Of a stretch of 42,876 bases of DNA, positions 15,057-31,981 are shown in pieces. This stretch comes from Zetaproteobacteria bacterium (GTDB lineage Bacteria > Pseudomonadota > Zetaproteobacteria > Mariprofundales > Mariprofundaceae). Under the pieces are notes generated by a model. That model was not told the origin of the DNA and made no database searches. It saw only the letters and a list, made by a program, of their open reading frames with translations. The stretch is from contig NVWS02000056.1 of the NCBI GenBank assembly GCA_002746295.2, positions 1 to 42,876 of the forward strand, written 5' to 3'. Made by a program: the position numbers and the translations under genes. Position 1 is the first letter of the stretch; each line of letters begins with the position of its first letter.

Positions 15057-15536
15057 ATGTCTCCTCAAACCAGTATCCCCCCCAGTTCTCCACCGACAGA
15101 AAATCTTCATGCTAATTTCAATCAAGCTTATGTAGAAGTCATGCAGGTTCGTGTGGGGCAAGAAATTATTCTTATTCCTGTTTCTGATGTGTCTGAAGTG
15201 ATTCATCAACAACGCTTAACCCCTGTACCTATGGCGCCAGACCACTTATTGGGTGTTTGCAATATTCATGGGCAGGTGGTGTGTGTGATTGACCCATGTC
15301 AAGTAATGTCTTTACCCTACAGTAAACAAACATTTGATGATAGCGTACGTTTCATTGTCCTTAGCCATCCTAAAATGCATCTTGCCTTACGTGCAGAAGA
15401 AATCTTATCACTTGAACCCATCCCAGAAGAAACTTTCCTACAGGCTACACAAGGTTCACAGGGGTTTTTCTATCGGAGTTTAAATATCAAAAACCAAGAC
15501 TACCGAATACTTCATACGGCAGCCTTGTTTAAATAA
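15057..15536 (+). CDS. CheW/PilI-like chemotaxis adaptor
   Basis: A 159-residue CheW-domain protein. The fold is recognised by ILIPVSDVSEVIHQQ, the hinge PMAPDHLLGVCNIHGQVVCV and a C-terminal ILHTAALF. CheW proteins bridge receptors and CheA in signalling arrays. It begins 3 bp after the pilB-receiver stop and is followed by the MCP, so by position it plays the PilI part in this Pil-Chp-like cluster. The first 20 residues are serine- and proline-rich and probably disordered. Confidence 0.85.
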   Translation: MSPQTSIPPSSPPTENLHANFNQAYVEVMQVRVGQEIILIPVSDVSEVIHQQRLTPVPMAPDHLLGVCNIHGQVVCVIDPCQVMSLPYSKQTFDDSVRFIVLSHPKMHLALRAEEILSLEPIPEETFLQATQGSQGFFYRSLNIKNQDYRILHTAALFK

Positions 15537-15553
15537 AGCAGACACACTTACTT

Positions 15554-15572
15554 GATTAAATAATATTTAATC
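15554..15572. promoter_or_regulatory. AT-rich palindrome upstream of the PilJ-like MCP
   Basis: GATTAAAT and ATTTAATC flank AAT, giving a 19-bp near-perfect palindrome 18 bp after the CheW stop. It lies in the 104-bp gap before the MCP, the only sizeable gap in this operon. It could be an operator or a weak hairpin. There is no T-run, so it is not a convincing terminator. Confidence 0.3.
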
Positions 15573-15640
15573 GTCAATATGCAGCTAAATTTATCACCAT
15601 TCGATCATTCGAAGTCAGTTACACATTGAGGGGAATTATT

Positions 15641-17098
15641 ATGACAGACGAGCAAAAACGTACTGTAATCAGTATCCGACAACTGGCGCGTCGGAACACG
15701 CTTATTTCTATTGCATTGTTTGCCATCCTTATCGGCACCGTATTCTTTGCATTTAACCGAGCTTCTGCGGGCATCAATCAAATCTCTACACTCAACAGCC
15801 AACAAACATCCTTAGAACGTTTTCGTGCCTCCCTGCCCAATGTATTATTACCTTTAAATGATTTTACATTGACGGGTAACAAAGAAGATATTGGCAAAAT
15901 CAAGCAGGCATCCAATGAATTCCTAAAATTATACACGCAAGTATCTGCCATGCCTTCACTCCAAGCTGCTGATATTAAAAGGCTCAAAGAAGTCCATGAT
16001 TTGATGCAAGAAGTGATTAAAATTTCACAGGACATCACCAGCGGAAAAATTCCTACTCAAATGGCAAGTAATGTAACCGTCGTGGCACAAAGCCTTGTAT
16101 TTGTAGCCCAAGATAAACTGAACAGCGTAGCAACCCAGCTTGCAAGCTCACTGTCCACCGAGCAAAGTGCCAAAGAAAGTCAAATTCAACTGTACTCCAT
16201 GATTAATGTGGGCATCATTATTTTCATTGTATTCGTCATGGCATTTTTCAACCGTAGCTTTGTCACCAATATTGCAGGTGCTATTGGTCAAATGTCCGAA
16301 GGTGTGAGTCATGCATCCTCAGAAATTCTTACCGCAGTCGATAGTCAAGCAACAGCATCATCAACACAGGCTCAATCCGTGGCAGGCGTGACATCGGAAC
16401 TGGAAGAGATGTCTGGCTCTGCCAAGAAAATCGCGACCACTGCTGCAAGCGTGGAACGCATTGCTGCCGCCACTGCGACTTCTGCTGAAGAAGGCGCTGA
16501 AGCGGTGAATGAAACCATTGGTTATATGGAACGTATTCGTAAAGAAGTGGCACTGATTGCAGAAAAGGTGACCGACTCAGGGCGAAAATCCGAACAAATT
16601 TTAGAATCACTCGGTGCATTGCAAGAACTGGCAGATGAAACCCATCTTCTGGCGCTCAACGCATCCATTGAATCGGCGGCGGCTGGAGAATTTGGTAAAC
16701 GCTTCTCCGTTGTCGCAGGAGAAGTACGCCGTCTTTCTGAACGTGCGCGTCAATTCACCGAAGAAATTCAGATTGTGGTGGATGATGTGAATAAATCAAC
16801 ACGAGAATCCATTGAAGTCACCAAAAAAGGACTGGAGGAAGTGGATAAGGGTGTGAGTGTTGCCAAGAATGCTGGTCAATCCCTCAGCAAGATGAAATCC
16901 ATGTCTGAAAAAACCAGCCAAGCAGTACGCACCATCGCCCAAGCCACCAAACGTCAGGATGAGAGTTCGCAAGAGTTTGTGCTGACCATGCGCCAAATCT
17001 CTGATCTTCTACAAGATTCTGCTGCACAAATGGATAAATCACGTGATGCATCCTATCGACTGAATGATGTGGCAGATGATCTGCAGAAACTCATTTAG
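15641..17098 (+). CDS. Methyl-accepting chemotaxis protein, PilJ-like position, no HAMP
   Basis: A 485-residue receptor. The first membrane helix is at about 17-37, then a helical periplasmic domain of about 150 residues, then the second helix (GIIIFIVFVMAFF, near 190-210). The cytoplasmic signalling hairpin carries [20 protein letters not shown] and SVVAGEVRRLSERA, the conserved tip that contacts CheA and CheW. No HAMP domain is evident between the second helix and the coiled coil, and there is no C-terminal CheR-binding pentapeptide. The start is ATG 15641, with GAGGGG at 15628-15633; an in-frame TTG at 15626 is less likely. Between CheW and CheA it takes the role of PilJ. Confidence 0.88.
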   Translation: MTDEQKRTVISIRQLARRNTLISIALFAILIGTVFFAFNRASAGINQISTLNSQQTSLERFRASLPNVLLPLNDFTLTGNKEDIGKIKQASNEFLKLYTQVSAMPSLQAADIKRLKEVHDLMQEVIKISQDITSGKIPTQMASNVTVVAQSLVFVAQDKLNSVATQLASSLSTEQSAKESQIQLYSMINVGIIIFIVFVMAFFNRSFVTNIAGAIGQMSEGVSHASSEILTAVDSQATASSTQAQSVAGVTSELEEMSGSAKKIATTAASVERIAAATATSAEEGAEAVNETIGYMERIRKEVALIAEKVTDSGRKSEQILESLGALQELADETHLLALNASIESAAAGEFGKRFSVVAGEVRRLSERARQFTEEIQIVVDDVNKSTRESIEVTKKGLEEVDKGVSVAKNAGQSLSKMKSMSEKTSQAVRTIAQATKRQDESSQEFVLTMRQISDLLQDSAAQMDKSRDASYRLNDVADDLQKLI

Positions 17099-17116
17099 TC
17101 CCTTTCGATATTTTCT

Positions 17117-19897
17117 GTGTCAGGTTTTGACTTATCCAATTTTTTAGCCTCCTTCTTTGATGAGGCTCGTGAACGACTTAGTTCGATTAACCAAGCTTTG
17201 GTCAAATTTGAAGCGGGTGAATTAACAGAAGAAGGCATGGTCGCTTTGCGCCGTGATGCCCATACCATTAAAGGCTCTGCTCTCATGTTGGGGGTCACTG
17301 ATATTGGCGAGGCCGCTCATATTTTCGAAGATATGATGGAACAATTGATGAAGCATCCAAGCTGGCGAAAAGAACCAGCGATGGTTCAATTTCTTTATGA
17401 TATTCATGATGCATTGGATGACCGTCTAAAAGACCCAGATGCTCAACAATTGATTAAGGCTGGACCTTTACAAGCCAGTCAACAGCAACTCATCGACCGT
17501 ATGAATAAACCTATGGATGAACCCACGTCAACACCTGACAACCTTGTTCATTTACCGACGGTTTCAAAGCCTACAGAAGAAGCCCGCCCCCAAGAAACTC
17601 CCACCTTGATTGAATCATTGGATAGAGAAAACCATGATGATGTCAACACCATTGACATTGATATGATGGAAGGCTTTCCAGATTTAGATGGCTGGCTCAA
17701 TGCCGATGAAATTTCCTTTGAAACTATAGAGGAAGTCCCCGTATTGGATCTTGATGATCGTACATCAAACACTGATTTGATAAGTACTTCTGACTCAAAA
17801 TCCATCGTCAACAGCACAGCAAAAGTGCCCACCACTGAACTTATCGGGGCTGGTGAAGCAGAGGCTTGGAAAAAACAGCAACAAGCCAAGCTTACGACCG
17901 AGGCAGCACGTACCCCCATCCTTGACAGCACTTCCGTTTCTCAAGCCGTATCAGTAGAGATAGAACCCAATAAGGATGAAACAACAACAGGCATTGCAAG
18001 TATAGAAATACTTGCAGGTACCAATGTACCCCCCACTTTCACAGACCCCCCCATTCAAAGCCCCCTTCAAGAAGCTAGCTTAGATTCAGATGCTTCTTCA
18101 TTCCGCCCCAATATTGAACAAATGGAAATGAATAAAACAGCCCAACGTAAAAGTTCGGGGCGTTTTTTACGTGTCGATGCAGAGCGTTTGGAGAACCTAT
18201 CCAACCAAGTCATTGAATTGAGTACCCAGCAAGCAAGAGATGAAGCTTTCGAAACCCAATTTACACGCCTATCCAAGGACTTTCGAACATTACAACGTGA
18301 TTTTCAGTACTTTGAAAAATCAGCTGGTGAATTGGATGCAAAAGCCAGCAAACAACTGTTACAACAACTGAATATCGGTTTTGAACAACAGGCACGCCAA
18401 CAACGTCGTTTTATTGAAGACGTTCGTTTTTCTAACATTCGTAATGAATATATGATGCGCGATCTTCGTGATCAAGTCCTTGCACTCATGTTACGGCCTT
18501 TGGATAATATTTTTTCTACCTTTCCGAGAGCGATTCGAGATGTCGCAATCCGCTTGAATAAACGTGTGCGCTTGGTGATTGGTGGCAAAACATTGGAAAT
18601 GGATCAAGGTGTTACCGAGTCCTTGGTTGAACCCCTTGTTCATTTGCTAAATAATGCCGTAGCACATGGCATTGAATCACCCGAAGAACGCTTGGCAGCG
18701 GGTAAACCTGAAGAAGGGCAAGTTTCCATTATTGCACGGCAAAATGGTAGTGAAATTCGCATTGAAATTATGGATGATGGACGTGGCTTGGATACTGAAA
18801 TCATCAAAAAATCCGCCGTTTCTAAAGGCGTTACCACCCAAGTCGAAGCCGATCAAATGGATTCGGCTGAAATCCTTGAAATGATTTTTCGCCCAGGCTT
18901 CACCACAAGGGAGACAGTGGATGCCACTTCAGGACGCGGAATCGGCATGAACGTGGTACAAGATACTGTGCGTCGTCTGACAGGCTCCATCCGTATTCAA
19001 AGTGAGGTTGGGAAGGGAACAAACTTCATTCTATCCATTCCTGTCAGTATTGCGGTTCAGTTTGCCTTGATATTTCGCATGGGTGATATGCGTTTTGGTA
19101 TGCTGACCCATATGGTAGAACAAGCCATTCCTTATCATACTACCCAGGTGCAACGAAGCAGTGATGGCAAAGCGTTTATTCTTTACGAAGACTATCAAGT
19201 CCCTCTTGTGGACATGCGTCATGTCTTAGGCAATACCGATAGCACGCCAGAGAAAAAGAAAGGAAACATCATTATTGCCGAACATATTGAAGGCTATGTT
19301 GGTATCGTCGTGGATGAACTGTTGGATGATATTGAAATTGTGGTGCGTGACCTCGACCCATACATCAAACGTTATAACCCTCAAGGTCTGATGGGCAACA
19401 CCATTGCTTCCGATGGTTCCGTCATCATGCTTTTAGAACCTTATGGTATCAAGGAAATGGGACGCACTTCTCCCGATCAACATATCGAAATTCATGTCAA
19501 AGAAGATGATAAGCTTCATTTTAATATCTTATTGGTGGATGACTCACTGATTGCGCGTGAAGTTGAGAAAAGTATCTTTGAAAGCATCGGTTTTGAAGTC
19601 GATACTGCCATTGATGGTTTGGATGCTTTGGAAAAATTACAGGGCAAGACTTATGATATGGTTGTCACTGATTTGGAAATGCCACGTTTGGATGGGTTTG
19701 GTTTGGTTCGTCGCATTCGTAACCAATCACGTTATGAAAATTTACCATTGATGATTATTTCAACACGTGAAAGTGCCGAAGATCGCATGCGTGCGCTTGA
19801 ATCGGGTGCTGATACTTATATGGTAAAACAGCAACTAAAAGGTGATGAAATTCTTCAAACAGTGAAAGCCCTGATTGGCAAGTTTCCACAACAATAG
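17117..19897 (+). CDS. ChpA-like hybrid CheA histidine kinase with receiver
   Basis: A 926-residue kinase. It has one HPt domain with phosphoacceptor H49 in AHTIKGSALMLG, a long acidic disordered linker (about 140-340), and a CheA catalytic core with HATPase motifs HLLNNAVAHGIE, DDGRGLD and GRGIGMNVV. A CheW-like domain (about 640-780) follows, then a receiver with phosphoacceptor D852 in VTDLEMPRLDG. P. aeruginosa ChpA has many HPt modules; this form has one. The start is GTG 17117, 18 bp after the MCP stop, with only a weak ribosome site. It is the last gene of the plus-strand cluster and the probable phosphodonor for the PilB-fused receiver. Confidence 0.9.
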   Translation: MSGFDLSNFLASFFDEARERLSSINQALVKFEAGELTEEGMVALRRDAHTIKGSALMLGVTDIGEAAHIFEDMMEQLMKHPSWRKEPAMVQFLYDIHDALDDRLKDPDAQQLIKAGPLQASQQQLIDRMNKPMDEPTSTPDNLVHLPTVSKPTEEARPQETPTLIESLDRENHDDVNTIDIDMMEGFPDLDGWLNADEISFETIEEVPVLDLDDRTSNTDLISTSDSKSIVNSTAKVPTTELIGAGEAEAWKKQQQAKLTTEAARTPILDSTSVSQAVSVEIEPNKDETTTGIASIEILAGTNVPPTFTDPPIQSPLQEASLDSDASSFRPNIEQMEMNKTAQRKSSGRFLRVDAERLENLSNQVIELSTQQARDEAFETQFTRLSKDFRTLQRDFQYFEKSAGELDAKASKQLLQQLNIGFEQQARQQRRFIEDVRFSNIRNEYMMRDLRDQVLALMLRPLDNIFSTFPRAIRDVAIRLNKRVRLVIGGKTLEMDQGVTESLVEPLVHLLNNAVAHGIESPEERLAAGKPEEGQVSIIARQNGSEIRIEIMDDGRGLDTEIIKKSAVSKGVTTQVEADQMDSAEILEMIFRPGFTTRETVDATSGRGIGMNVVQDTVRRLTGSIRIQSEVGKGTNFILSIPVSIAVQFALIFRMGDMRFGMLTHMVEQAIPYHTTQVQRSSDGKAFILYEDYQVPLVDMRHVLGNTDSTPEKKKGNIIIAEHIEGYVGIVVDELLDDIEIVVRDLDPYIKRYNPQGLMGNTIASDGSVIMLLEPYGIKEMGRTSPDQHIEIHVKEDDKLHFNILLVDDSLIAREVEKSIFESIGFEVDTAIDGLDALEKLQGKTYDMVVTDLEMPRLDGFGLVRRIRNQSRYENLPLMIISTRESAEDRMRALESGADTYMVKQQLKGDEILQTVKALIGKFPQQ

Positions 19898-20241: not shown

Positions 20242-21075
20242 TCATGATTGTAACTGCCAAATCCGCTTACCTTGAAACATCATAGACTTCCATTTTGAAG
20301 CATGACCTGCCACACGGTCCGCAGCTCCTGTCAGTAAATAAGCATGTGGCTTCATGGTTTTAGCCAAGCGATCAATCACATTTTTTCGTTCTTCAGGTGA
20401 AAAATAAATCAAAACATTGCGACAAAAAACAATATCAAAGGGTCCATAACTACGTGCTCTCATCACCACAGCATCATCCACTAAGTTTGCCTCTTGAAAA
20501 GTCATCATACGCTTTAAATCTTGGCGTACCTGCCATGTTTCTCCTTGCTTTGAGAAGAATCGTGACAATTGTTTTTCGCCCAAGCCACGCTTGACTTCAA
20601 TTTGAGAATAAATGCCTGATTTGCCATAGTTCACAGCTTGCTCAGATAAATCTGTTGCCAAAATTTTCACCCGTTGTGTCGCATTGGGTAATGCTTCAGC
20701 CGCTATCATGGCAATGGAGTAAGGTTCTTGCCCACGCGATGATGCCGCTGACCATATTTTCACAGGTGAATGCATCCCACCCGTATCATTTAAAGCAGGG
20801 AAAATAATCTTTTTCAATGCTTCAAAAGGATAGTTATCACGAAAAAATAAGGTTTCATTTGTCGTCATCTCATCAATCAAAGCTTTGGCAATATCACCTT
20901 TTTCTTGACGTTTAATCCGCATCACCAAGGTGTTGATATCAACAATATCAAACTTACGCAGCAAGACTTGCACCCGTGATCGAATCAAGTAAGCCTTATC
21001 ATCTGCCAACACCAAACCACTGCGTCGTAATAAAAAATCTTGTAAATAAGTAAATAAATCTGAACGTATTGTCAT
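20242..21075 (-). CDS. cheR: Chemotaxis protein methyltransferase CheR
   Basis: A 277-residue SAM-dependent methyltransferase that methylates glutamates on receptors. It has the N-terminal helical domain and the SAM-binding segment KIWSAASSRGQEPYSIAM, where the usual cysteine and threonine of SAACSTGEEPY are serine and arginine. FDIVFCRNVLIYFSPEER is the family's strand-4 motif. It is the last gene of the minus-strand operon, starting 3 bp after cheB. No beta-loop-dependent pentapeptide is seen on either MCP. As the only CheR in the window, it may serve both receptor systems. Confidence 0.92.
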   Translation of the reverse strand: MTIRSDLFTYLQDFLLRRSGLVLADDKAYLIRSRVQVLLRKFDIVDINTLVMRIKRQEKGDIAKALIDEMTTNETLFFRDNYPFEALKKIIFPALNDTGGMHSPVKIWSAASSRGQEPYSIAMIAAEALPNATQRVKILATDLSEQAVNYGKSGIYSQIEVKRGLGEKQLSRFFSKQGETWQVRQDLKRMMTFQEANLVDDAVVMRARSYGPFDIVFCRNVLIYFSPEERKNVIDRLAKTMKPHAYLLTGAADRVAGHASKWKSMMFQGKRIWQLQS

Positions 21076-21078
21076 ACC

Positions 21079-22167
21079 CTAGCCTCCACTCGCTTGTACA
21101 ATGCCCATCGCAATCTCATTGAGCGGTAACACCTCATGCGCCGCACCGCACTTCACTGTTTCACCAGGCATACCCCATACCACACTACTTTGTTCATCTT
21201 GGGCAATCACATAAGCCTGCTTATCTCGCATGGCTTTGGCTCCCGCAGCCCCATCTGCTCCCATGCCTGTCAACACCACTGCCACACAACGTGTTCTCGG
21301 CAATAGTTTCACCAATGAATAAAAGGTGACATCCACCGCTGGTTTACAATGATGCACCTTCTCACCATCCACCAATTTCACACATAACTTTGCACCCATG
21401 CGTTCAATTTCCATATGCACATCACCTGGCGCCACATAAATACAACCACCTTCCAACACCATACCGTCTTTTGCCAACTTCGCTTGCAACTTGGTTTCTC
21501 GATCCAAACGATCCGCCAAAGATTGTAAGAACAACTTCGGCATATGTTGGGTCACCGTAATCGGTAAAGAGAAATTAGCTGGCAACATACTCAATACTTT
21601 ATGCAAGGCTGCTGGACCACCTGTACTGGAACCCATCGCAATCAAATCTGCTTTTTTTGCTGCACGCATACGTTTGGATTTTTGTTGCAGCATCAATGGT
21701 TCCGAAACACGTGAAAATGTATCAACTTTATCACAACCTATGACGCGACTCACACTGCGTGCATGTGGCAAGGTCTTTTTCAACATTTTTAATAAAACAG
21801 CGGTGGGATCACGCTCGGATGCTTTGGGCTTCAAAACAAAATCAAACGCACCGACTTGCAAAGCTTTCAGCGTTTTTTCGTCATCTGTTTCTGACTCACT
21901 GCTAATCACAAGCACACAGACATCAGGTGCTTCATGTTGTAAACACTCAATCACTTCAATGCCATGAAAATGTGGCATTTCCATATCTAGCGTCACCACA
22001 TCAGGCTGTAGTTGTTTGATTTTATTCAACGCATCCCGCCCATCTTTGGCGATACCGACGACTTCAACATGCTTCAATTGCGACATGCATCCTCGAAAGA
22101 AAGTTCGGAATACGACCGAATCATCAACAATTAAAATACGTATTTTTTCCCCGTATTTCGATTTCAT
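21079..22167 (-). CDS. cheB: Chemotaxis response regulator methylesterase CheB
   Basis: A 362-residue protein that removes or deamidates receptor methyl groups. The receiver domain has LIVDDSVVFR and phosphoacceptor D61 in TLDMEMPHFHG. A linker is followed by the methylesterase domain with GSSTGGPAA (catalytic serine about S181), VTQHMPK (histidine) and LTGMGADGAAG (aspartate). ATG 22167 was preferred. A longer start at 22206 is a TTG inside the end of cheW and would add residues before the usual receiver beginning. It lies between cheW and cheR in one operon. Confidence 0.92.
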   Translation of the reverse strand: MKSKYGEKIRILIVDDSVVFRTFFRGCMSQLKHVEVVGIAKDGRDALNKIKQLQPDVVTLDMEMPHFHGIEVIECLQHEAPDVCVLVISSESETDDEKTLKALQVGAFDFVLKPKASERDPTAVLLKMLKKTLPHARSVSRVIGCDKVDTFSRVSEPLMLQQKSKRMRAAKKADLIAMGSSTGGPAALHKVLSMLPANFSLPITVTQHMPKLFLQSLADRLDRETKLQAKLAKDGMVLEGGCIYVAPGDVHMEIERMGAKLCVKLVDGEKVHHCKPAVDVTFYSLVKLLPRTRCVAVVLTGMGADGAAGAKAMRDKQAYVIAQDEQSSVVWGMPGETVKCGAAHEVLPLNEIAMGIVQASGG

Positions 22168-22195
22168 AAGAACTTTCTGCTCTTCATCGTTTCGT

Positions 22196-22705
22196 TTAAT
22201 GCACAACAGCAGAATCAGGTACTTGTGTCTCCAAACCTGGAATCGTCAAAGCAATAAAACGATCCACATTCATCAACACCAATACCCGATCATCTTGTTT
22301 TAACACCCCTTCACTCACCTGCCGCCAAACAGGATCCAGCGAACTGGGGGTGGGTTCATAGTCATCTCGATCCATCAACATCACTTCGCCCACATCATCT
22401 ACAGCCAAACCAAAATCTTCGCCTGAACTACCTTCAATAATAGCAACGTGGAAGGAGGCACCAGCTTCACGTTCTGGTAAGCCCAAGACCTGACGTACAT
22501 CCAATTCAGTAAGCACCCGACCCCGCAAATTAATCAACCCCATCACGGCACTGGGTGACAATGGCATCACCGTTCTTCTATGCCCAGTCACCACCTCACG
22601 CACTTGTTGAACATGTAAACCAATCCATTGGTCCCCCACACGACAGGTCAACAGTTCCAAATCTGAACGCACAAGTTTATTTGCCACATGAACCAAAGCA
22701 TTCAT
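22196..22705 (-). CDS. cheW: Chemotaxis adaptor CheW
   Basis: A 169-residue CheW-domain protein with LLTCRVGDQWIGLHVQQVRE at the N-terminus, the conserved VMGLINLRGRVLTELDVRQV and a GLAVDDVGEVM segment. It links receptors to the large CheA encoded immediately upstream, starting 1 bp after its stop. It differs clearly from the CheW/PilI of the plus-strand cluster, which suggests that the two arrays use separate adaptors. A C-terminal extension of about 15 residues runs past the usual end of the domain. Confidence 0.92.
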   Translation of the reverse strand: MNALVHVANKLVRSDLELLTCRVGDQWIGLHVQQVREVVTGHRRTVMPLSPSAVMGLINLRGRVLTELDVRQVLGLPEREAGASFHVAIIEGSSGEDFGLAVDDVGEVMLMDRDDYEPTPSSLDPVWRQVSEGVLKQDDRVLVLMNVDRFIALTIPGLETQVPDSAVVH

Positions 22706-22706
22706 A

Positions 22707-25643
22707 TCAATCTCCTTGTGTCACAGTGCTGGAAATTAATTCACCTTCCACACTGAATGGCTTCTGATTTTGTATATCATCCATGATAAGTTTCAAACCT
22801 TCGGTCAATGTTTGCCGATCAAATTTAATCATCACATCACGAAATTTTCTCTGGGATTCAACAGGTATTTCATCAATGGGTGTTGCCGTTAATGCCACCA
22901 CAGGCACAGCCGACAACTCTGAACGAGATTTCACCCACTCCAACAAGCCATAACCATCCATATTCGGCATTTCTAAATCGGTAAGAATCAAGTCGGGAAT
23001 TTTATCTTCCAAAATCGCGCAAGCTTCTAAACCATCTTTCGCCACCCAAGTCTCATAATTCAATGTATCCAAGACTGGTATGACCAAGTTCCTGAAAAAA
23101 GTAGCATCTTCAACGAATAAAATAGTCGGTGCGGAAAACTCTTCACTCGATCCCACACTTTTATTGCGTGAAAACCAATCGGGATCCACTTGTTTGACCA
23201 CTTCAAACACATCCACCACTTCAGTAGCAATATCTTCAATCACCGATGTACCTAAAAACAAAGGGTTGTCTGATGTCATTTTTATATCCAAAGGTATCTC
23301 TAAAATATCCACGACTTCTTCCACTTGCAGACACAAGCATTTATAACCATCGGATAAAATAAGACCATAGACACTGTCATCGGGGGATATGTCTCGATGT
23401 AGACCAATCAAAGCACTCCAACGCAGTACAGCAATCACATCATCACGGTATTGAAGTACTTCAGAACTTCCAGAATGTTCAATTTTCTTTTCAGAAAAGC
23501 ATTCCAAACGCTCGATCAATGCCATGGGAATCGCAAAACGTTGCCCACCCTCAGCAAACACCAAGGTGTGCTGTAGCTCGTGGATGGCGACTTCTTTTTC
23601 CTCTTCCAAATGTTGAATGGCCTCGGCTTCTTGTGATAATTTCATCAAGGATGCCAATTCATTACAGTCAAAAATAGGAATCACCACACCATCACCCAAA
23701 ATACTACACCCACCATAAAAACGTGTTTGTTGGAAATGGATACCCAAAGGTTTGACTACAATTTCTTCCGCACCAAAAATTTTATCCACCAACACACCAT
23801 AGGTGCGATCACCAATATCCACCACCACAATCGATCCTTCATTGTCCACATTCTGTTTAAATTCCAGCACTTCCTTCAAACGCATCACGGGCAAGAGTTT
23901 ACCCCGCAAACGATAAAACGGTTGCCCACCAATCAAACGCCATTCACTGGAATCAGCAGGTGCATTCAATAGTTCGCGCACACTCATTTGAGGAATGGCA
24001 AAACGATGTCCATCACAGCCTATAATCATGGCTGAAATAATCGCCAAGGTCAGTGGAATACGAATGCGTAACGTTGTACCCACACCACGTTCACTGCTGA
24101 TGTCCACTGAACCACCCACTTTCTCAATCTCTGTGCGCACCACATCCATGCCCACACCACGTCCAGATAAATTACTCACTTGTTCAGCTGTCGATAAACC
24201 CGCATGAAAAATCAACTGCAAGACAGCTTTATCACTGATAATCGCAGCTTGTTCTTCTGTCAGTACACCCATCGTCACCGCTTTACTTTTCACACGCGAG
24301 GCATCAATACCAGCCCCATCATCTTCAATCAAAATGACAATAAATCCTGACTCTTGCGAAGCCGATAGTTTTAATGTGCCTTCAATTGGTTTTGAAGCAT
24401 TTCGTCTTTTATCAGGCATTTCAATGCCATGATCACAACTGTTCCGAATAATATGCGTCAACGGATCTTTGAGCGCATTGAGAATGGTGCGATCTAGCTC
24501 TGTTTCCTCACCTTCCATCACCACCGTAATTTTTTTATCCAATTGCTTGCCCATATCTCGAACAATACGCGGAATACTGCTCCACACACTTTGAATCGGT
24601 TGCATGCGGGTGCGCAATAGCTGTGCCTGTAATTGTTCGGTGATATGATCCACATCCCGACTCACACGCACATATTCCATATTGCCAGAGCTCATCATCA
24701 TCTGCATCAAACGATTTCGCGTCAGCACCAATTCACCCACTTGGTTCATCAAACTATCCAACAGTTCAATATCAACACGAATACTGCCAGCACTTTTCGG
24801 TCGTTGTTGTTTACTACCAGTTTTAGGCACGGCTTTCACCGCTGTATTTGTCGCTTTGGGCGTTTGGGGTTTTGCAGCAGATTTGGCAGCAGTTTGGGGC
24901 GAAGGTGATATTGATTTTTTGTTCTTACTTGGGGGGGTGCTGTCGTCTTCGTCTTTATTTTTAGCATGATCTTCAACATTGTTTTTTGATTCAGACTTCG
25001 CCACATGCTTTACGACCATGGCTGCTTCTTTTAATGTTTTTTTAGCCACCCCTAAAATTTTCAAAGCATCCGAAGGGGTTAAACCATCCGTCTCTCGCAA
25101 ACGGGCAAAACCAGCATCTATCATATCTTGCGCTGTAAACAATTTCGCACCCTTCAAGGTCGTCAACACCAGTGCATCAAACTCACCCAACCAATCAAGG
25201 TTTTGTGCTGCTTCCTCAAGCTCTTCTAAAGCCTCTTGTCCAGCCGATGTTGAAAAATCTTCCACCATACGTTCGGCGATATGCAAACGTTCAATCAAAT
25301 CACTGTGATCCAAATCTGGTTCGGCACCTTCGGCTTCCAAACCTTCCAACAAAGCTTTGATACCATCGGTACATTCAAGTAGCAAAGACACCACTTCATC
25401 ATTGACCAAATACTTGGTAGCGCGGATTTTACCCAACAGGTTTTCACCTGCATGGGCTGTTTTTTGCAAGCCCACCAAGCCCAAAAAGCCACAACTACCT
25501 TTAACAGTATGCACCGCTCGGAAAATACCATCCAACAAGTCCACGTTACTGGGGTGCATTTCCAAATCCATCAATTGTTGTTCAATGGATGCTAAATTCT
25601 CATTACTTTCTGTTAAAAACTCACTCAGTAGCTCTTCATCCAT
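22707..25643 (-). CDS. cheA: CheA histidine kinase with two CheW domains and a receiver
   Basis: A 978-residue kinase. The HPt domain carries H45 in AVHTVKGSCGFLG. A variable region and lysine/proline-rich linker (about 225-285) follow, then the dimerisation segment DSLMNQVGELVLTRNRLMQ. The HATPase domain has HIIRNSCDHGIE, EDDGAGID and GRGVGMDVV. The first CheW domain is at about 535-680, a second at about 690-820, and a receiver has phosphoacceptor D889 in LTDLEMPNMDG. Ordinary CheA has one CheW domain and no receiver. The extra modules could let one kinase bridge more partners in the array and act as a phosphate sink. A good ribosome site (AGGAG) precedes ATG 25643. Confidence 0.93.
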   Translation of the reverse strand: MDEELLSEFLTESNENLASIEQQLMDLEMHPSNVDLLDGIFRAVHTVKGSCGFLGLVGLQKTAHAGENLLGKIRATKYLVNDEVVSLLLECTDGIKALLEGLEAEGAEPDLDHSDLIERLHIAERMVEDFSTSAGQEALEELEEAAQNLDWLGEFDALVLTTLKGAKLFTAQDMIDAGFARLRETDGLTPSDALKILGVAKKTLKEAAMVVKHVAKSESKNNVEDHAKNKDEDDSTPPSKNKKSISPSPQTAAKSAAKPQTPKATNTAVKAVPKTGSKQQRPKSAGSIRVDIELLDSLMNQVGELVLTRNRLMQMMMSSGNMEYVRVSRDVDHITEQLQAQLLRTRMQPIQSVWSSIPRIVRDMGKQLDKKITVVMEGEETELDRTILNALKDPLTHIIRNSCDHGIEMPDKRRNASKPIEGTLKLSASQESGFIVILIEDDGAGIDASRVKSKAVTMGVLTEEQAAIISDKAVLQLIFHAGLSTAEQVSNLSGRGVGMDVVRTEIEKVGGSVDISSERGVGTTLRIRIPLTLAIISAMIIGCDGHRFAIPQMSVRELLNAPADSSEWRLIGGQPFYRLRGKLLPVMRLKEVLEFKQNVDNEGSIVVVDIGDRTYGVLVDKIFGAEEIVVKPLGIHFQQTRFYGGCSILGDGVVIPIFDCNELASLMKLSQEAEAIQHLEEEKEVAIHELQHTLVFAEGGQRFAIPMALIERLECFSEKKIEHSGSSEVLQYRDDVIAVLRWSALIGLHRDISPDDSVYGLILSDGYKCLCLQVEEVVDILEIPLDIKMTSDNPLFLGTSVIEDIATEVVDVFEVVKQVDPDWFSRNKSVGSSEEFSAPTILFVEDATFFRNLVIPVLDTLNYETWVAKDGLEACAILEDKIPDLILTDLEMPNMDGYGLLEWVKSRSELSAVPVVALTATPIDEIPVESQRKFRDVMIKFDRQTLTEGLKLIMDDIQNQKPFSVEGELISSTVTQGD

Positions 25644-25695: not shown

Positions 25696-26073
25696 TTAAA
25701 ACAACATCCCGCCCACAACTTCAATCAATGCATCAGGTTCAAAGGGTTTCACCAGCCATGCTGAAACCCCTGATTCATGCCCGACACTTTTTTTATCTTC
25801 ACCCGACTCGGTGGTGAGCATCACAATCGGTGTATGAGCATAACTGGGTATTTTTCGGATATTTTGAATCATGGTTAGCCCATCCATATTGGGCATATTC
25901 AAATCTGTTAGTATCAAATCATAAGGGTTATCTGCTGAGGCTGTCGCTTTATCCAAACCAATTTGACCATCTTTGGCTTCATCCACATTAAAATCAACTT
26001 TCTTTAAAGTACGCTTCACAGTAATCCGCACCATGGTCGAATCTTCAACAATCAAAATTCTAGGTCCTGTCAT
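25696..26073 (-). CDS. cheY: Single-domain response regulator CheY
   Basis: A 125-residue stand-alone receiver with the acidic pair in LIVEDSTMVR, phosphoacceptor in LTDLNMPNMDG, the switch threonine in VMLTTESG and the lysine in LVKPFEP. Its ATG overlaps the stop of the upstream channel gene in ATGA, so the two are translationally coupled. Transfer from the CheA encoded next is the obvious source of phosphate. Its output may be the flagellar or pilus motor; no flagellar genes are in the window. An upstream in-frame start inside the channel gene is rejected. Confidence 0.92.
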   Translation of the reverse strand: MTGPRILIVEDSTMVRITVKRTLKKVDFNVDEAKDGQIGLDKATASADNPYDLILTDLNMPNMDGLTMIQNIRKIPSYAHTPIVMLTTESGEDKKSVGHESGVSAWLVKPFEPDALIEVVGGMLF

Positions 26074-29000
26074 AATTCCCCCTTCAATACCATGCGTTCT
26101 TCTTCCATGACATAACGCTTCGCCACTTCTTCTTCCCATAATGCCGCTTGACTGGCATCACCAACATGCATCGACCAATCATCCAAACAAGTTTGAACAT
26201 TGGTGAGACGTTGCGAGACACGATCAATGTTTTGTAAATCGGTCAGCGCTGCCATAATCGCTTCTTCCACCGCATCAGAAACACCCATATCCAAAATTTC
26301 AGTCAGCTTAATCAAACCATCCTCACTACTTTCAGATAGCAGTTCCAAGGAGCCTTGCACTTGTTTCTTCAAAACTTGTAACAAACGTTTATCTGCCGTT
26401 TGTGGCCATACTGAATCATTCATAATCTCCCCTTCTTTCACCTCTTCTGGCACTGCCAACTCATTTTCTTCACGCACAACTTCTCTATCAGACTGTTCAT
26501 CTACCACTTCTTCAACCACGGTTTCTATTTTTGCCACAGCTTCCATCTTTGGTTCTGCTTTTACTGCAACTACAATATCTTCACTGACATCCTTGTTGTC
26601 ATCCAATGACACATCCAACACACCACGCCGACAAAACAATAAATTCATGGTATGTATAGGCACATCCATCTCCATCACAGGTGAACCCGCCAACAAATGC
26701 ATACGACTACCCGTTTCATCCTGTGGCTGCGGAAAGCTTCGATCCAAAAGACCAAACATGGTCTGTCCATCTGCATCCAACTCAGGCATCACATACGCCA
26801 TCAACATCCAGCCACGCGCCAAAGCTTCTTGATAAATCGGCACCCAATCCATGCCCGCCGAGACTTCCACCAAGCGTGTGGTGAGTACATCTTCCACCAA
26901 CACCGCATCGCCCAACATTGCATCCACAAAGGCATAACTCTTTTCATCTTGTGTGGATGCTTCGGGATAAAGGTGTTGTCTTGTTTGAGTAAGCAACTGC
27001 CTTGCCATAAATGTATCATGAAAAGCATCGGGAGAACCCACATCTACTTCCAATAGGGGATAATCCATGCCAGCCATTTCAAAACTGGCAACATTGCCCC
27101 CGCTTCTTGGCAACACCATCAGTTTGGGCGGTGTCCACCATTTCACATTTTGTTTGCGTTGGCTTAATGAGCGCGCCACTTCATGAAACCATAATTCCAA
27201 CAAAGAATCCTCACTATCACCCTCGCGTTCTTCGGGATAAAACATCATCACCTTACAACCGCGCAACAAGCCCACCCAGCCTTCTGAATCCAAACCATCC
27301 CATGGATGCACTGACACTTTTAATTCACAACTACACTGTGCTTTTGCACGTGCACAGGCACCTTTTAAACGGCGTAATTGTTCGGCAAGTTCATCGGCAT
27401 CACGGGTACTAAACACATGCAAGGTAAGTTTATGATGTTTCAATGCCATTTCTTCAATCATCGCAGGTAAACCTGTATGCCAGCCCATAAACAACATGGA
27501 TAAATCCCATGTTTCAGGCCATACGAATTGTTTAAGTGCATGTTCTTTTTGTGACAGATTCTCTTGCTGTAAATTTGTTTCCAAAATACCCGACCACAAT
27601 AAAGTATTACCACCCAAGCCCACCACATCGACAAAATGACCACCCACTTTTCCATGTGCCAAATCACTGAACAACACAAACGAACCATCTTCCCGCCGAC
27701 CAGCCAAAAGATTGACACCTTGGCTAAAACAATACGTCAGCCACACACCCAAGGCTTGTCTTTCATCCCCCATCAGCAACCATGGTTTGCCTTGCCCGAC
27801 TTCGACATCAAACGCCCAAGCAAGGGTATAAAGACCCGTTTCCCCTGCCACAGCATCCAACAAACGAATACCCAATTCTGGCATCCAAGCGCAATGATGC
27901 ATTTGATAAAGCATGCGCGCAGTGATCGATGATGAATCCAAAATTTTCATACCCATCGAATCTGCATACATACTGTGCAATTTATTGGGCATGATTGCTT
28001 CCGACACCAACACCACAGGCACGCCAAAATTGCGCACCAAATGATGGGTATCTACCAAGTGTATATCTTGTTTTCGACGAAAAATAATCATCTGTTGCAC
28101 GCCTGAAAGCTTAAAATGTTCGGCTAAGTTCCGACTTCCTGGATCCACCTCACGCACACTCAACCAACTACCCACCGTCGATGCACCAGAAACCGCCTTA
28201 TCATGAAAAACCCATACCGCAGCAAAGCGTTGCCGCATGCGTGAAAACATCGCATCCAAGCGTTTTAACACCCCATAGGATTGTTCATTCCAGCCTACAA
28301 TCACCAAGTATTCACGCGCAGAAAGAGGACTATTGCTTAACTCTCGTAACATGTAATGCATCACATTCGAACCCAAACTGACCACCAAAGCGAAGAAAAA
28401 TACACCCGAAAGCACCAACAACACCGTTAAACCAAGCAACCAAGGTGAAAAAGCTTCGGTGGTGGCAGCGCCTGGATCCACCATCAAACGAAACACATAC
28501 AATACCACTTGCACTGGCACATAATCTTGTGCATTGGTCACGCCATCGTCATTGATGTCCATTTGCGGATAAAGATAAACCACCGATAAACCACCCATCA
28601 TCATCATGGCCACCATCATGCCTGCCAACATGCTGGTTTCACTGCGTACTTCTTGCATCGCTGCCACACGTTTCGCAGCCAAAGAAATATTACCCAAAGG
28701 ATTCAGCATCACCAAAAAACGAATGGCACGAATCGCAACCCAATAAGGTGAAAATTCAGGCATCAAACCCAACAAAACCACACTCGATACACCATCAAGC
28801 AACACAAAGCCAAATTCAGTATTCCTACGTCCACCCTTGGGTAACACCTTCCATATTGAATAGGCACGGCATGCCGCCTCTAAAATAAGCAACACACCCA
28901 TGTAAAGCGCAACAGATGGCACAGCAATCGCCAAACCCACCATACCGATGACCAACAAAGCAAACGGCAATGAATAAATAAAGGTATCAAAGGTGAGGAA

Positions 29001-29468
29001 GGCAAAGATACGCAACATACGCAGCATATACATGCCACGAAACAGCCGTGCGATACGCAAATAAACCGCCTGATCCAATATATCCGCTGACACAAACAAA
29101 GCCGAAAACAAACTCAGTGTTGCCAAACCATCCAACATAAGAAAAATAAACTCAGTGCGATTACGGAAATGGTTTTCCTTTTGCAACCAAAAACGCAACA
29201 TCCACTCCCCCGCAAAGAACAACGCCAAGGGTGCCAACACAAACCAATATCGTTCAAACATGCACAAGCCCAATGCCGCCACGATAAGGATGGCATAACG
29301 GGGATGTGAAAACACACGTTCACCCAACAGCAGCCACTCACGGCGTGAATGCCCACCAGATAAACGAGATTTCCAGTGAGAAACTTTCACCTCATCTACA
29401 TTTTGTACATGCTCATCACCTTGGATTGGCGCAATATCACGCTCATCTTTTTGATGTTTAGCTGCCAT
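26070..29468 (-). CDS. CASTOR/POLLUX-like ion channel with RCK domains and CheZ-like C-terminal helix
   Basis: A 1132-residue membrane protein. The first ~375 residues hold many hydrophobic helices. One is S4-like, with arginines 138, 141, 144, 150 and 153 at mostly three-residue spacing; a second, weaker one is near 245-267. Before the presumed pore helix is a calcium-loop motif, DINDDGVTNAQD (304-315). Then come LYVFRLMVDPGA and a long last helix. REYLVIVGWNEQSYG (385 on) starts RCK-like domains, as in plant CASTOR/POLLUX channels. After an acidic linker (about 960-1030) the helical tail contains LQNIDRVSQRL, with D1082 and Q1086 in the D-x-x-x-Q spacing of CheZ. ATG 29468 has AAAGG 8 bp upstream. 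The 269 bp before it, back to the MCP stop, show no convincing gene. It overlaps cheY by 4 bp. Channel fold is likely, ion unknown, phosphatase role inferred. Confidence 0.7.
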   Translation of the reverse strand: MAAKHQKDERDIAPIQGDEHVQNVDEVKVSHWKSRLSGGHSRREWLLLGERVFSHPRYAILIVAALGLCMFERYWFVLAPLALFFAGEWMLRFWLQKENHFRNRTEFIFLMLDGLATLSLFSALFVSADILDQAVYLRIARLFRGMYMLRMLRIFAFLTFDTFIYSLPFALLVIGMVGLAIAVPSVALYMGVLLILEAACRAYSIWKVLPKGGRRNTEFGFVLLDGVSSVVLLGLMPEFSPYWVAIRAIRFLVMLNPLGNISLAAKRVAAMQEVRSETSMLAGMMVAMMMMGGLSVVYLYPQMDINDDGVTNAQDYVPVQVVLYVFRLMVDPGAATTEAFSPWLLGLTVLLVLSGVFFFALVVSLGSNVMHYMLRELSNSPLSAREYLVIVGWNEQSYGVLKRLDAMFSRMRQRFAAVWVFHDKAVSGASTVGSWLSVREVDPGSRNLAEHFKLSGVQQMIIFRRKQDIHLVDTHHLVRNFGVPVVLVSEAIMPNKLHSMYADSMGMKILDSSSITARMLYQMHHCAWMPELGIRLLDAVAGETGLYTLAWAFDVEVGQGKPWLLMGDERQALGVWLTYCFSQGVNLLAGRREDGSFVLFSDLAHGKVGGHFVDVVGLGGNTLLWSGILETNLQQENLSQKEHALKQFVWPETWDLSMLFMGWHTGLPAMIEEMALKHHKLTLHVFSTRDADELAEQLRRLKGACARAKAQCSCELKVSVHPWDGLDSEGWVGLLRGCKVMMFYPEEREGDSEDSLLELWFHEVARSLSQRKQNVKWWTPPKLMVLPRSGGNVASFEMAGMDYPLLEVDVGSPDAFHDTFMARQLLTQTRQHLYPEASTQDEKSYAFVDAMLGDAVLVEDVLTTRLVEVSAGMDWVPIYQEALARGWMLMAYVMPELDADGQTMFGLLDRSFPQPQDETGSRMHLLAGSPVMEMDVPIHTMNLLFCRRGVLDVSLDDNKDVSEDIVVAVKAEPKMEAVAKIETVVEEVVDEQSDREVVREENELAVPEEVKEGEIMNDSVWPQTADKRLLQVLKKQVQGSLELLSESSEDGLIKLTEILDMGVSDAVEEAIMAALTDLQNIDRVSQRLTNVQTCLDDWSMHVGDASQAALWEEEVAKRYVMEEERMVLKGEL

Positions 29469-29737
29469 ATACACTACCTTTAAACAAAAGGAATCGTATT
29501 TTTTTATGCAAAATCGAACCACTGATGATACCACAGACACTTGGGAAGACCTGATCACTGTTGAATCACCCGAATCATCTGCGTCACACACCGAAGAATC
29601 AGGGCAAGAGGATATTTCAACGGGTTCAAGCTGGGAAATACGTGCGACACCATTCGATTCTCCAACTTGTATCGTCGCCTGTGCCATTACTGACAAGCAC
29701 GGCGATGATAAAGTTCTTGGAGGAACTGCTGGGGGCT

Positions 29738-31981
29738 TTAATGGCGCCGCAAGGAGGCTAAAAAATCCAGAACCTGGGTATGCAAACTTTCACCCTGAGA
29801 GCGTATGCTGCCCGATACCGCCAATACATTCCCTGCTGCATTGCCCGTTTCAGCTGATGCACTGGTGACTTGCTCAATCGCTTCCGTCACCCGATGGGTT
29901 GCATCCGATGCATATTGCACACTTTGTGCAATTTCACGGGTGGCATCGTTTTGTTCTTCGGTTGCCGATGAAATCGCTCGATTGATTTCATTCATGCGTT
30001 TGATGGTATCTGCAATATGCCCAATGGCTTTTGCAGCCCCATCACTTTCTGTTTGAATCGCAGAAATTTGACCTGCAATCCGTTCCGTTGCTTGCGCCGT
30101 TTGATTGGCAAGCTCTTTGACTTCACCTGCCACCACCGCAAAGCCACGCCCTGCATCACCTGCTCGTGCAGCTTCAATGCTCGCATTGAGTGCCAAAAGG
30201 TTGGTTTGTTCGGCAATATCGGTAATCACCCGAACCACTTCACCAATTTCTTGTGATACACTGGAAAGCTTGGACACATTTTCATTGGTACTTACGGCCT
30301 CTTCCACCGCTTGATCCGACATAGCCACTGCTTCTTGTACTTGACGTGTAATTTCTGCAATGGATGCCGTCAATTCCTCGGCAGCCGATGCTACAGTCAT
30401 CACATTTTCATTGGCTTCCATCGCACTGGTAGAAACACTCCCTGCTTGATGCGTCGCCTCTTCTGCCATACTACTCATACCCTCACTGGCAGCTTCCATT
30501 TGTGTGGATGCAGCAATCAGTTCTTCCACCATGGCACCAATATTTTCTTCAAAACTACTTGCCAATTCATCACTTTCAGTCACATCACTCCATGAGACCA
30601 TGATGGACTCCCAATCGCCTTGCTGGTTATCAATGGCAAAGGAAGAAAACTTAATATTACGCCCTGCAATCGTGAAGCCTGCGGTGGCAGGTAAATTGCC
30701 TTTACTTGCCAAAAAATTTCGTTGATGTGCAGGGTTTTTATGAAATATATCAATGCACTGACCCACAATCTGATCGGCTGTACAAGGCAGTGCCGATTGA
30801 ATACCACGAAAAAGATGCAAGGCAGCAGGGTTCATATAGTTCACCACCAAGGTATGCCGATCTGCAATCATGGTGGCTTGCGGACTGGCTTCGACCACGC
30901 GCTTCAATTGCTCTGCTTCTTTGGATTGCTCTTGAAAAATACCCAAGGACTCCACCATTTCACCAAGCTCGCCACCTTGCCCAGAGGACACAGGAACTAC
31001 AATGCCGCGTTCCAAGGCATCCATGGCTTCGGATACTTCACGAATCGGTCTGGCAACACTGCGTGCCACTATCAACAACAAGATCAGCGTAATCACAAGC
31101 ACCACCAACATCAGCGACCAATAGTAAACAGGCATAGTTTCCATAATATTATTGTATTCAGCGTCCACATCATCAATTTCTTGACCAAACATATGGTCAA
31201 TGGCTTCAAGACCAGCTAACAGTTCATTTTTAAAAATACGTTTCACTTCTTGATTACGTTTTAACAGCTCCAAATCCAGTTCGGCATAAGCAAGGAAATC
31301 TTCCAGATAGATACCCATCGCCTTAGCAATCTCTTTTTTATCATTGTCACTGATATGGGTCGCATCCAATAACTGAGAAAAATGCTCCATTTCATTTTTT
31401 TGTTGCGTCAAATATTTGAGATTATGCCGCAACATAAAATCTTTTTCATGTCGGCGAAGCATCAACATGGATACCATCAAATTATCCTGTTTTAATGCCT
31501 TGATGCGATATTCTGCACGGTGAACAGAATCACGCAATGCGCCACGCAAGCCCAACTTTTCAGTCAAACCCAACTTCTCACGCATTTCAAGCATCAAACG
31601 TGCTTCTGAATCAAAATGTCGCATGGCTTCCGATAATTTTTCGGATGTATCCTTTAGATCTTGTGTTGGAAGAGCATTGGCTAAACGGACAATCTCTTCA
31701 TCATTATTTTTGGACAAACTTTGATAATTCACTTCTTCTTTTTTATCTGACAGATATAAAAAAGCTTGCAAAGCATGGTACTCTTCAGGAATACTGGCAG
31801 ATAAACCATCCAACATTTCCAGCATTTTCCCCGATTGAAACTCTTGCTTGGACACCACTTGTAATTTATTCACCATGACTTCATGCGCAATACCTGATGC
31901 CAATAGCCCCAACATTGCCACACTGCCCAACACCAGCATGCGTTGCATGATGCTAAGTTGTTTGAGATTCAATATTTTCAT
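29738..31981 (-). CDS. Methyl-accepting chemotaxis protein with HBM-like sensor, HAMP and PAS domains
   Basis: A 747-residue receptor. Membrane helix 1 is at about 13-32. The periplasmic part of about 250 residues is all helical, with [16 protein letters not shown], a hallmark of helical bimodular (HBM) sensors. Helix 2 is at about 286-308, then HAMP ([17 protein letters not shown]). A PAS domain (about 370-480, starting [14 protein letters not shown]) and the signalling hairpin follow, with [19 protein letters not shown] and [15 protein letters not shown]. It can thus sense outside and inside the cell. There is no CheR pentapeptide at the C-terminus. GGGGAG precedes ATG 31981. It is the first gene of the minus-strand che operon. 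Confidence 0.93.

Follow-up and report, generated by a model that had tools for sequence, protein, structure and literature searches.

A 42,876-nucleotide stretch of DNA from a Zetaproteobacterium of the family Mariprofundaceae (contig NVWS02000056.1 of assembly GCA_002746295.2, referred to below as the window) contains, between a gene for a methyl-accepting chemotaxis protein (MCP) and cheY, an open reading frame (ORF) of 1132 amino acids (26070..29468, minus strand) that comprises a membrane core, a tandem RCK-like gating-ring region, an acidic linker, and a CheZ-like tail. On balance, we favour the reading that the tail is a CheZ/CheT-like phosphatase module for phosphorylated CheY (CheY-P), which takes the place of cheZ in the operon and is made both as a free protein and tethered to the channel. 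We infer the CheY-P phosphatase activity of the tail; the control of the channel over the phosphatase is speculative. The source genome amounts to ~2.1 Mb in 138 contigs, and all close relatives returned were Mariprofundaceae, other Zetaproteobacteria, or metagenome-assembled genomes labelled merely "proteobacteria".

The last ~107 residues of the ORF form a conserved module that is set off from the channel by the unconserved acidic linker (residues 951-1015; 26424..26618, minus strand, as are all features of the ORF and its chemotaxis cluster), most of which has a predicted local distance difference test score (pLDDT) of <35. The AlphaFold model of the tail (mean pLDDT, 75) consists of a helical hairpin (residues about 1027-1101; 26166..26390; helices at 13-46 and 51-87 in the numbering of the modelled segment) followed by two short helices at the C-terminus. 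The sequence D1082-RVS-Q1086 (26211..26225), the counterpart of the DXXXQ motif of CheZ and CheT, is located inside helix 2 of the hairpin. The earlier note, made from the sequence of this stretch, had based its proposal of a CheZ-like tail on these two residues and on context, and both residues proved to be invariant in 32 of 32 aligned tails, free-standing and tandem copies included, so that the motif is more than a chance resemblance; R1083, V1084, and Q1079 are also among the invariant residues. A conserved C-terminal RYVMEEER (residues 1118-1125; 26094..26117), the counterpart of YTMxxER in the MCP modules described below, is a possible contact site for CheY.

In most tail-bearing genomes the tail is a single in-frame fusion to the channel. 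Several loci carry tandem tails (L010, L011, and L108; in L049 a single chain holds three copies). The tail forms an ORF of its own in L047, L049, and L050, and in genome G016 it is a separate gene without the channel. In L049 (1922-7373, plus strand), which is from a Zetaproteobacterium, the three-tail channel chain is followed by one more tail, the fourth, in its own ORF ahead of cheY. A weak match of the tail profile in L118 (genome G128) has QNID but lacks the Q at +4, and it was regarded as a chance match.

The order of genes on the minus strand is MCP (29738..31981), fusion ORF, cheY (25696..26073), cheA with a C-terminal receiver domain (22707..25643), and then cheW, cheB, and cheR (20242..22705). 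The coordinates confirm the previously claimed position of the 1132-amino-acid ORF between the MCP gene and cheY, as well as the ATGA (26073-26070) in which the start codon of cheY overlaps the stop codon of the tail. This adjacency and overlap agree with the advantage that cheY and cheZ are known to gain from translational coupling (PMC2716512). The ORF starts at the ATG at 29468; an alternative upstream TTG at 29696 would extend it to 1208 amino acids. The tail is present in 43 of 78 Zetaproteobacteria genomes, and all 43 have an orthologue of the cheA of the cluster; two genomes have this cheA without the tail, and 33 have neither (Fisher p 5e-20, with kinship ignored). In both cheA-only genomes cheA lies at a contig edge, so that a tail upstream of it would fall outside the contig. 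A search of 41 Zetaproteobacteria, the genome of the window among them, found no CheZ (PF04344), and the fusion is conserved beside cheY. Two outcomes that the earlier note had named as refuting its reading, a lack of conservation of D1082 and Q1086 and the constant presence of a true CheZ alongside the orthologues, did not occur. The tail is a strong candidate for the missing CheZ of Zetaproteobacteria.

In a sample of 399 genomes from across the phylum outside the Zetaproteobacteria, the tail profile matched the C-termini of MCPs with the pattern LQFQDRVSQ...YTMxxER (E values, 1.6e-6 and 2.5e-5), and the reverse profile, built from those MCP modules alone, found the tail in the window (E value, 3.5e-9). 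HHalign comparison of the tails with the gammaproteobacterial MCP C-terminal modules gave a probability of 97.6% (E value, 4.5e-12), and on these profile comparisons the tail is clearly a homologue of the MCP module. The MCP-module profile also matches a true alphaproteobacterial CheZ (E value, 7.6e-4), and one intermediate MCP is a sub-threshold match of the Pfam model of CheZ (E value, 8e-4). HHalign comparison of the MCP modules with CheZ gave a probability of 53% (E value, 1.4e-4; score, 33.3), with FQDRVSQ of the MCP module in register with FQDLTGQ of CheZ; the maximum score with 40 column-shuffled CheZ profiles was 19.3, and the reversed profile scored 15.9.

Several results weigh against a kinship with CheZ. 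The score of the MCP module against CheZ fell to 25.1 (E value, 0.0039) when the four most CheZ-like intermediates were left out; the signalling region of the same MCPs, used as a control, scored 18.8. No profile search connected the C-terminal region to CheZ directly: the tail had no CheZ match in Pfam or NCBIfam, even at E values of ≤10, HHalign gave a probability of 0.5%, and no CheZ was matched in a hidden Markov model search of the PDB. Foldseek returned no significant match of the tail model to CheZ, which was not among the 50 matches listed, although Foldseek is uninformative for the tail because helical hairpins are generic. The AXXFQ motif that directly precedes DXXXQ in CheZ (PMC7750401) is not recognisable in the tail, which has DLQNID where the related MCP modules have LQFQD, nor is the C-terminal CheY-binding peptide of CheZ recognisable in the tail, for which short C-terminal helices are predicted and in which RYVMEEER is conserved. 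As the tail does not match CheZ directly, the relationship is a remote one that runs through the MCP-module intermediates. Thus, what stands of the proposed CheZ-like tail is the hairpin with D1082 and Q1086 in its second helix and this indirect homology; the tail is probably a remote homologue of CheZ that is not a member of PF04344.

CheT provides a precedent for such remoteness. As reported in PMC12654446 for the work of Agbekudzi et al. (2024), CheT of Sinorhizobium meliloti is a DXXXQ protein that dephosphorylates one CheY, and it is described there as having a CheZ-like predicted structure without significant CheZ sequence homology and as belonging to a che cluster without CheZ. HHalign comparison of the tail with three short LQxxDxxxQ proteins of che clusters in one sampled class, surrogates for CheT rather than authentic CheT, gave a probability of 79%, which is weak evidence because the surrogates were picked by motif.

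The MCP C-terminal module has no name in Pfam or NCBIfam, and no description of it was found in the literature searched. Modules of the LQF(Q/E)DxxxQ type, likewise unnamed in these databases, are common to many MCPs (L119-L127, L132, L148, L157, and L161) and also occur in short che-cluster proteins (L153, L154, L156, L162, L179, L186, and L188); these MCPs and short proteins end in an acidic peptide, e.g., ITFF, VELF, IELF, or VNLF. It is possible that the unnamed DxxxQ module common to the tail and many MCPs represents an under-annotated group of CheY-P phosphatases.

The tail appears to have its own start site. A Shine-Dalgarno (SD) sequence, GAAGGGGAG (26427..26435), is located upstream of an in-frame ATG (26423-26421; M1016) that would open a free tail of 117 amino acids (26070..26423); the whole element is GAAGGGGAG-ATT-ATG (26435-26421) in the window and GAAGGAGAAGTGATG in relatives. 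An in-frame ATG behind an SD sequence opens the cheY-adjacent tail copy in 37 of 37 fused cases. The duplex energy with the anti-SD sequence was -6 kcal/mol or stronger in all 37 fused last copies (mean, -9.2), a level reached by 9% of 884 other internal Met codons (mean, -2.7). Synonymous recoding, which gave a mean of -7.2, tells against a start site to the extent that the EGE residues alone raise SD strength, and the idea that EGEVM is a mere protein motif is therefore partly true; however, with means of -7.2 versus -9.2 these residues explain SD strength in part but not in full. The ATG is missing from most of the N-proximal tandem copies (three in L049, the first of L050 and of L032, and those of L098, L086, L008, and L106), and this loss of the motif argues that EGEVM functions as a start site. 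The N-proximal copies of L085 and L009 keep the ATG, that of L009 without an SD sequence, and the last tail copies of L049 and L050 are separate ORFs with their own SD sequences. The free 117-amino-acid tail is probably made alongside the fusion. Because it carries both a ribosome-binding site and a start codon within the channel ORF and is a separate gene in some genomes, the tail is probably not just a channel domain.

The conserved SD sequence and ATG at the fusion point are also what would be expected if the ORF were a pair of overlapping or merged genes, so that the tail is a phosphatase but its fusion has no meaning for signalling, the free M1016 product alone matters, and the tethered copy is a by-product or a membrane anchor. 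The separate ORFs with their own SD sequences in L049 and L050 and the lack of a channel in G016 fit this explanation as well. It nevertheless seems rather unlikely, since most tail-bearing genomes keep the in-frame fusion and since the N-proximal tandem copies, mostly without a start of their own, still keep D and Q. Retention of the fusion and of these residues in startless copies suggests that the channel-attached copies are under selection.

It is less probable that the tail is a docking domain for CheY-P or the receptor array without phosphatase activity, through which chemotaxis would regulate or position the channel and thereby ion flux. Fusion to a channel and tandem repetition, with up to three copies per chain, would suit a binding module, and the homologous modules on MCPs sit within arrays. 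However, the D and Q by which DXXXQ catalysis is defined do not vary in any of the tails or MCP modules, the module is found free in G016, and the clusters have no other constant phosphatase.

Other phosphatases were considered as well. The earlier note had seen no separate CheZ, CheC, or CheX, and the window is indeed clear of them, as the genome is of PF04344, but the genome does encode a CheC/CheX-family protein (contig C33; L100 1027-1988, minus strand) outside the window and outside any che cluster, next to a stand-alone CheY-like regulator and a PAS hybrid kinase. Of the 78 Zetaproteobacteria, 10 have CheC, and 33 of the 43 tail-bearing genomes lack it; on this patchy distribution it was rejected as the constant phosphatase of tail-bearing clusters. 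A separate DxxxQ protein also limits the claim that no other phosphatase is present: contig C65 (L150 4607-5611, minus strand) encodes a 334-amino-acid protein that contains LQFEDITTQ, has GDVDLF at its C-terminus, and is similar to one in L152; it has no Pfam name, adjoins cheB of a cheB-cheD-cheR-ParA-MCP cluster, and is a further candidate DxxxQ phosphatase. Although both proteins exist in the genome, it is very improbable that either dephosphorylates the CheY of the cluster in place of the tail, given that CheC is missing from 33 of 43 tail-bearing genomes, that the CheC-family protein is accompanied by a different CheY-like regulator and a kinase, and that the LQFEDITTQ protein is part of another cluster, with cheB, cheD, and cheR.

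The body of the fusion had been interpreted as a CASTOR-like channel, and this is supported by fold comparison. In the AlphaFold model of the full-length protein, built from 16 orthologues, the best PDB matches found by Foldseek were the gating rings of LjCASTOR and MtDMI1 (E values, 1.1e-9 to 1.6e-8; 6o7a, 1.1e-9; 7vm8, 1.8e-9), followed by TrkA, Slo2.2, GsuK, and MthK. These best matches support the assignment of tandem RCK-like domains, RCK1 at residues about 385-640 (27549..28316) and RCK2 at about 650-950 (26619..27521), which was made from model secondary structure and Foldseek, and the model thus supports a CASTOR-like channel with a tandem-RCK gating ring. For the channel body, nothing was found in Pfam or NCBIfam or by sequence search of the PDB. 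The quality of the full-length model counts against this picture; the model is poor (pLDDT, 54; predicted template modelling score, 0.31), and its membrane part is too weak for judgement.

From the sequence and low-confidence model secondary structure, the membrane region (residues about 45-380; 28329..29336) appears to contain S1-S4-like helices, a second helical set, S5, a pore loop, and S6. All of the motifs previously pointed out are present: the arginines of the S4-like segment RIARLFRGMYMLRMLR (residues 138-153; 29010..29057), VDPGA (330-334), REYLVIVGWNEQ, and LQNIDRVSQRL with D1082 and Q1086. R138, R141, R144, R150, and R153 are invariant in the 16 orthologues, as are D331-P332-G333 of the predicted selectivity filter DPGAA (residues 331-335; 28464..28478). 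In CASTOR, which has the filter A-D265-S(A)-G-N-H-A, the Asp is essential, and the D265N substitution abolished current (PMC6697748). An EF-hand/dockerin-like loop, DINDDGVTNAQDY (residues 304-316; 28521..28559), is located in a predicted periplasmic turret; the loop may bind Ca2+ and the channel may conduct it. A tailless paralogue of 973 amino acids is encoded on contig C26 of the same genome (L103 1164-4085, plus strand), away from chemotaxis genes, with 24% identity to the fusion channel over the membrane core. The paralogue keeps D304 and D315 of the dockerin-like loop and likewise has Asp-x-Gly after the pore helix. Its filter is TDPGN, its loop is DIDFTRDGVVDAAD, and it ends in DDDVELF, a C-terminal peptide of the MCP-module kind. 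Searches with tblastn for the channel and for the paralogue in plasmids gave no match.

If the tail is a CheY-P phosphatase as favoured here, the C-terminal ~117 residues would take the place of cheZ in the chemotaxis operon of Zetaproteobacteria, and the phosphoryl group of CheY, whose gene is adjacent and translationally coupled, would be the target of D1082 and Q1086. The conserved sequence suggests that a free form would be produced from the internal ribosome-binding site and the ATG at M1016, while in the tethered form the disordered linker would join the module to a tetrameric cation channel of the CASTOR/DMI1 type, with a gating ring of tandem RCK domains, and would keep the phosphatase at the membrane. 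In a speculative further step, channel opening, ion entry, or a gating-ring ligand would change phosphatase activity. We propose only tentatively that the state of the channel or ion entry sets the lifetime of CheY-P directly, bypassing the receptor array, with the internal start setting the ratio of bound to free phosphatase. It is also possible that the influence runs in the reverse direction, with CheY-P acting on the channel.

In models of chemotaxis, input from the environment enters at the receptor-kinase array. With a channel-attached phosphatase there would be a second input, at signal termination, by which ion flux or the state of the membrane is linked to CheY-P, and an ion channel may thus feed directly into the swimming signal of iron-oxidising marine Zetaproteobacteria. 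No description of Zetaproteobacterial chemotaxis, or of CheZ fused to a channel or an MCP, was found in the literature searched, which left subscription journals mostly outside its scope. Both halves of the protein are of known kinds; that literature yielded no description of their fusion, of the tandem amplification, or of the conserved internal start. Elsewhere in the window, a PilB/GspE-type ATPase (12852-15053, plus strand; T2SSE E value, 9e-138) with a C-terminal receiver domain (Response_reg E value, 3e-28) heads a second chemosensory cluster (15057-19897) with CheW, an MCP, and a CheA with a receiver domain.

Among known systems, the tail is like CheZ (PF04344) in its helical hairpin, in the D-x-x-x-Q of the second helix, in its predicted short C-terminal helices, and in the position of its gene beside cheY, but the tail has no Pfam match, its hairpin is much shorter (117 versus about 214 amino acids), and it is fused to a channel and tandemly repeated. 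As CheT of S. meliloti is described in the source cited above, both are small DXXXQ proteins encoded in a che cluster lacking CheZ, but CheT is not fused to a channel. The gammaproteobacterial MCP module is clearly homologous to the tail over ~70-85 residues, including the D, R, V, and Q and the C-terminal YxMxxER, but is attached to MCP signalling domains and ends in a D/E-I-T-F-F peptide that the tail lacks. The channel resembles the plant Ca2+ channels CASTOR, POLLUX, and DMI1 in its tandem RCK gating ring and D-x-G filter (VDPGA in the fusion and TDPGN in the paralogue, compared with ADS(A)GNHA in the plant channels) and differs in having more N-terminal helices, a dockerin-like loop before the pore, and the CheZ-like tail. 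A second, shorter chemotaxis product from an in-frame internal start is also known from CheA-long and CheA-short of Escherichia coli, although there the protein is a different one, whereas in the fusion described here it is the phosphatase module that would form the short product.

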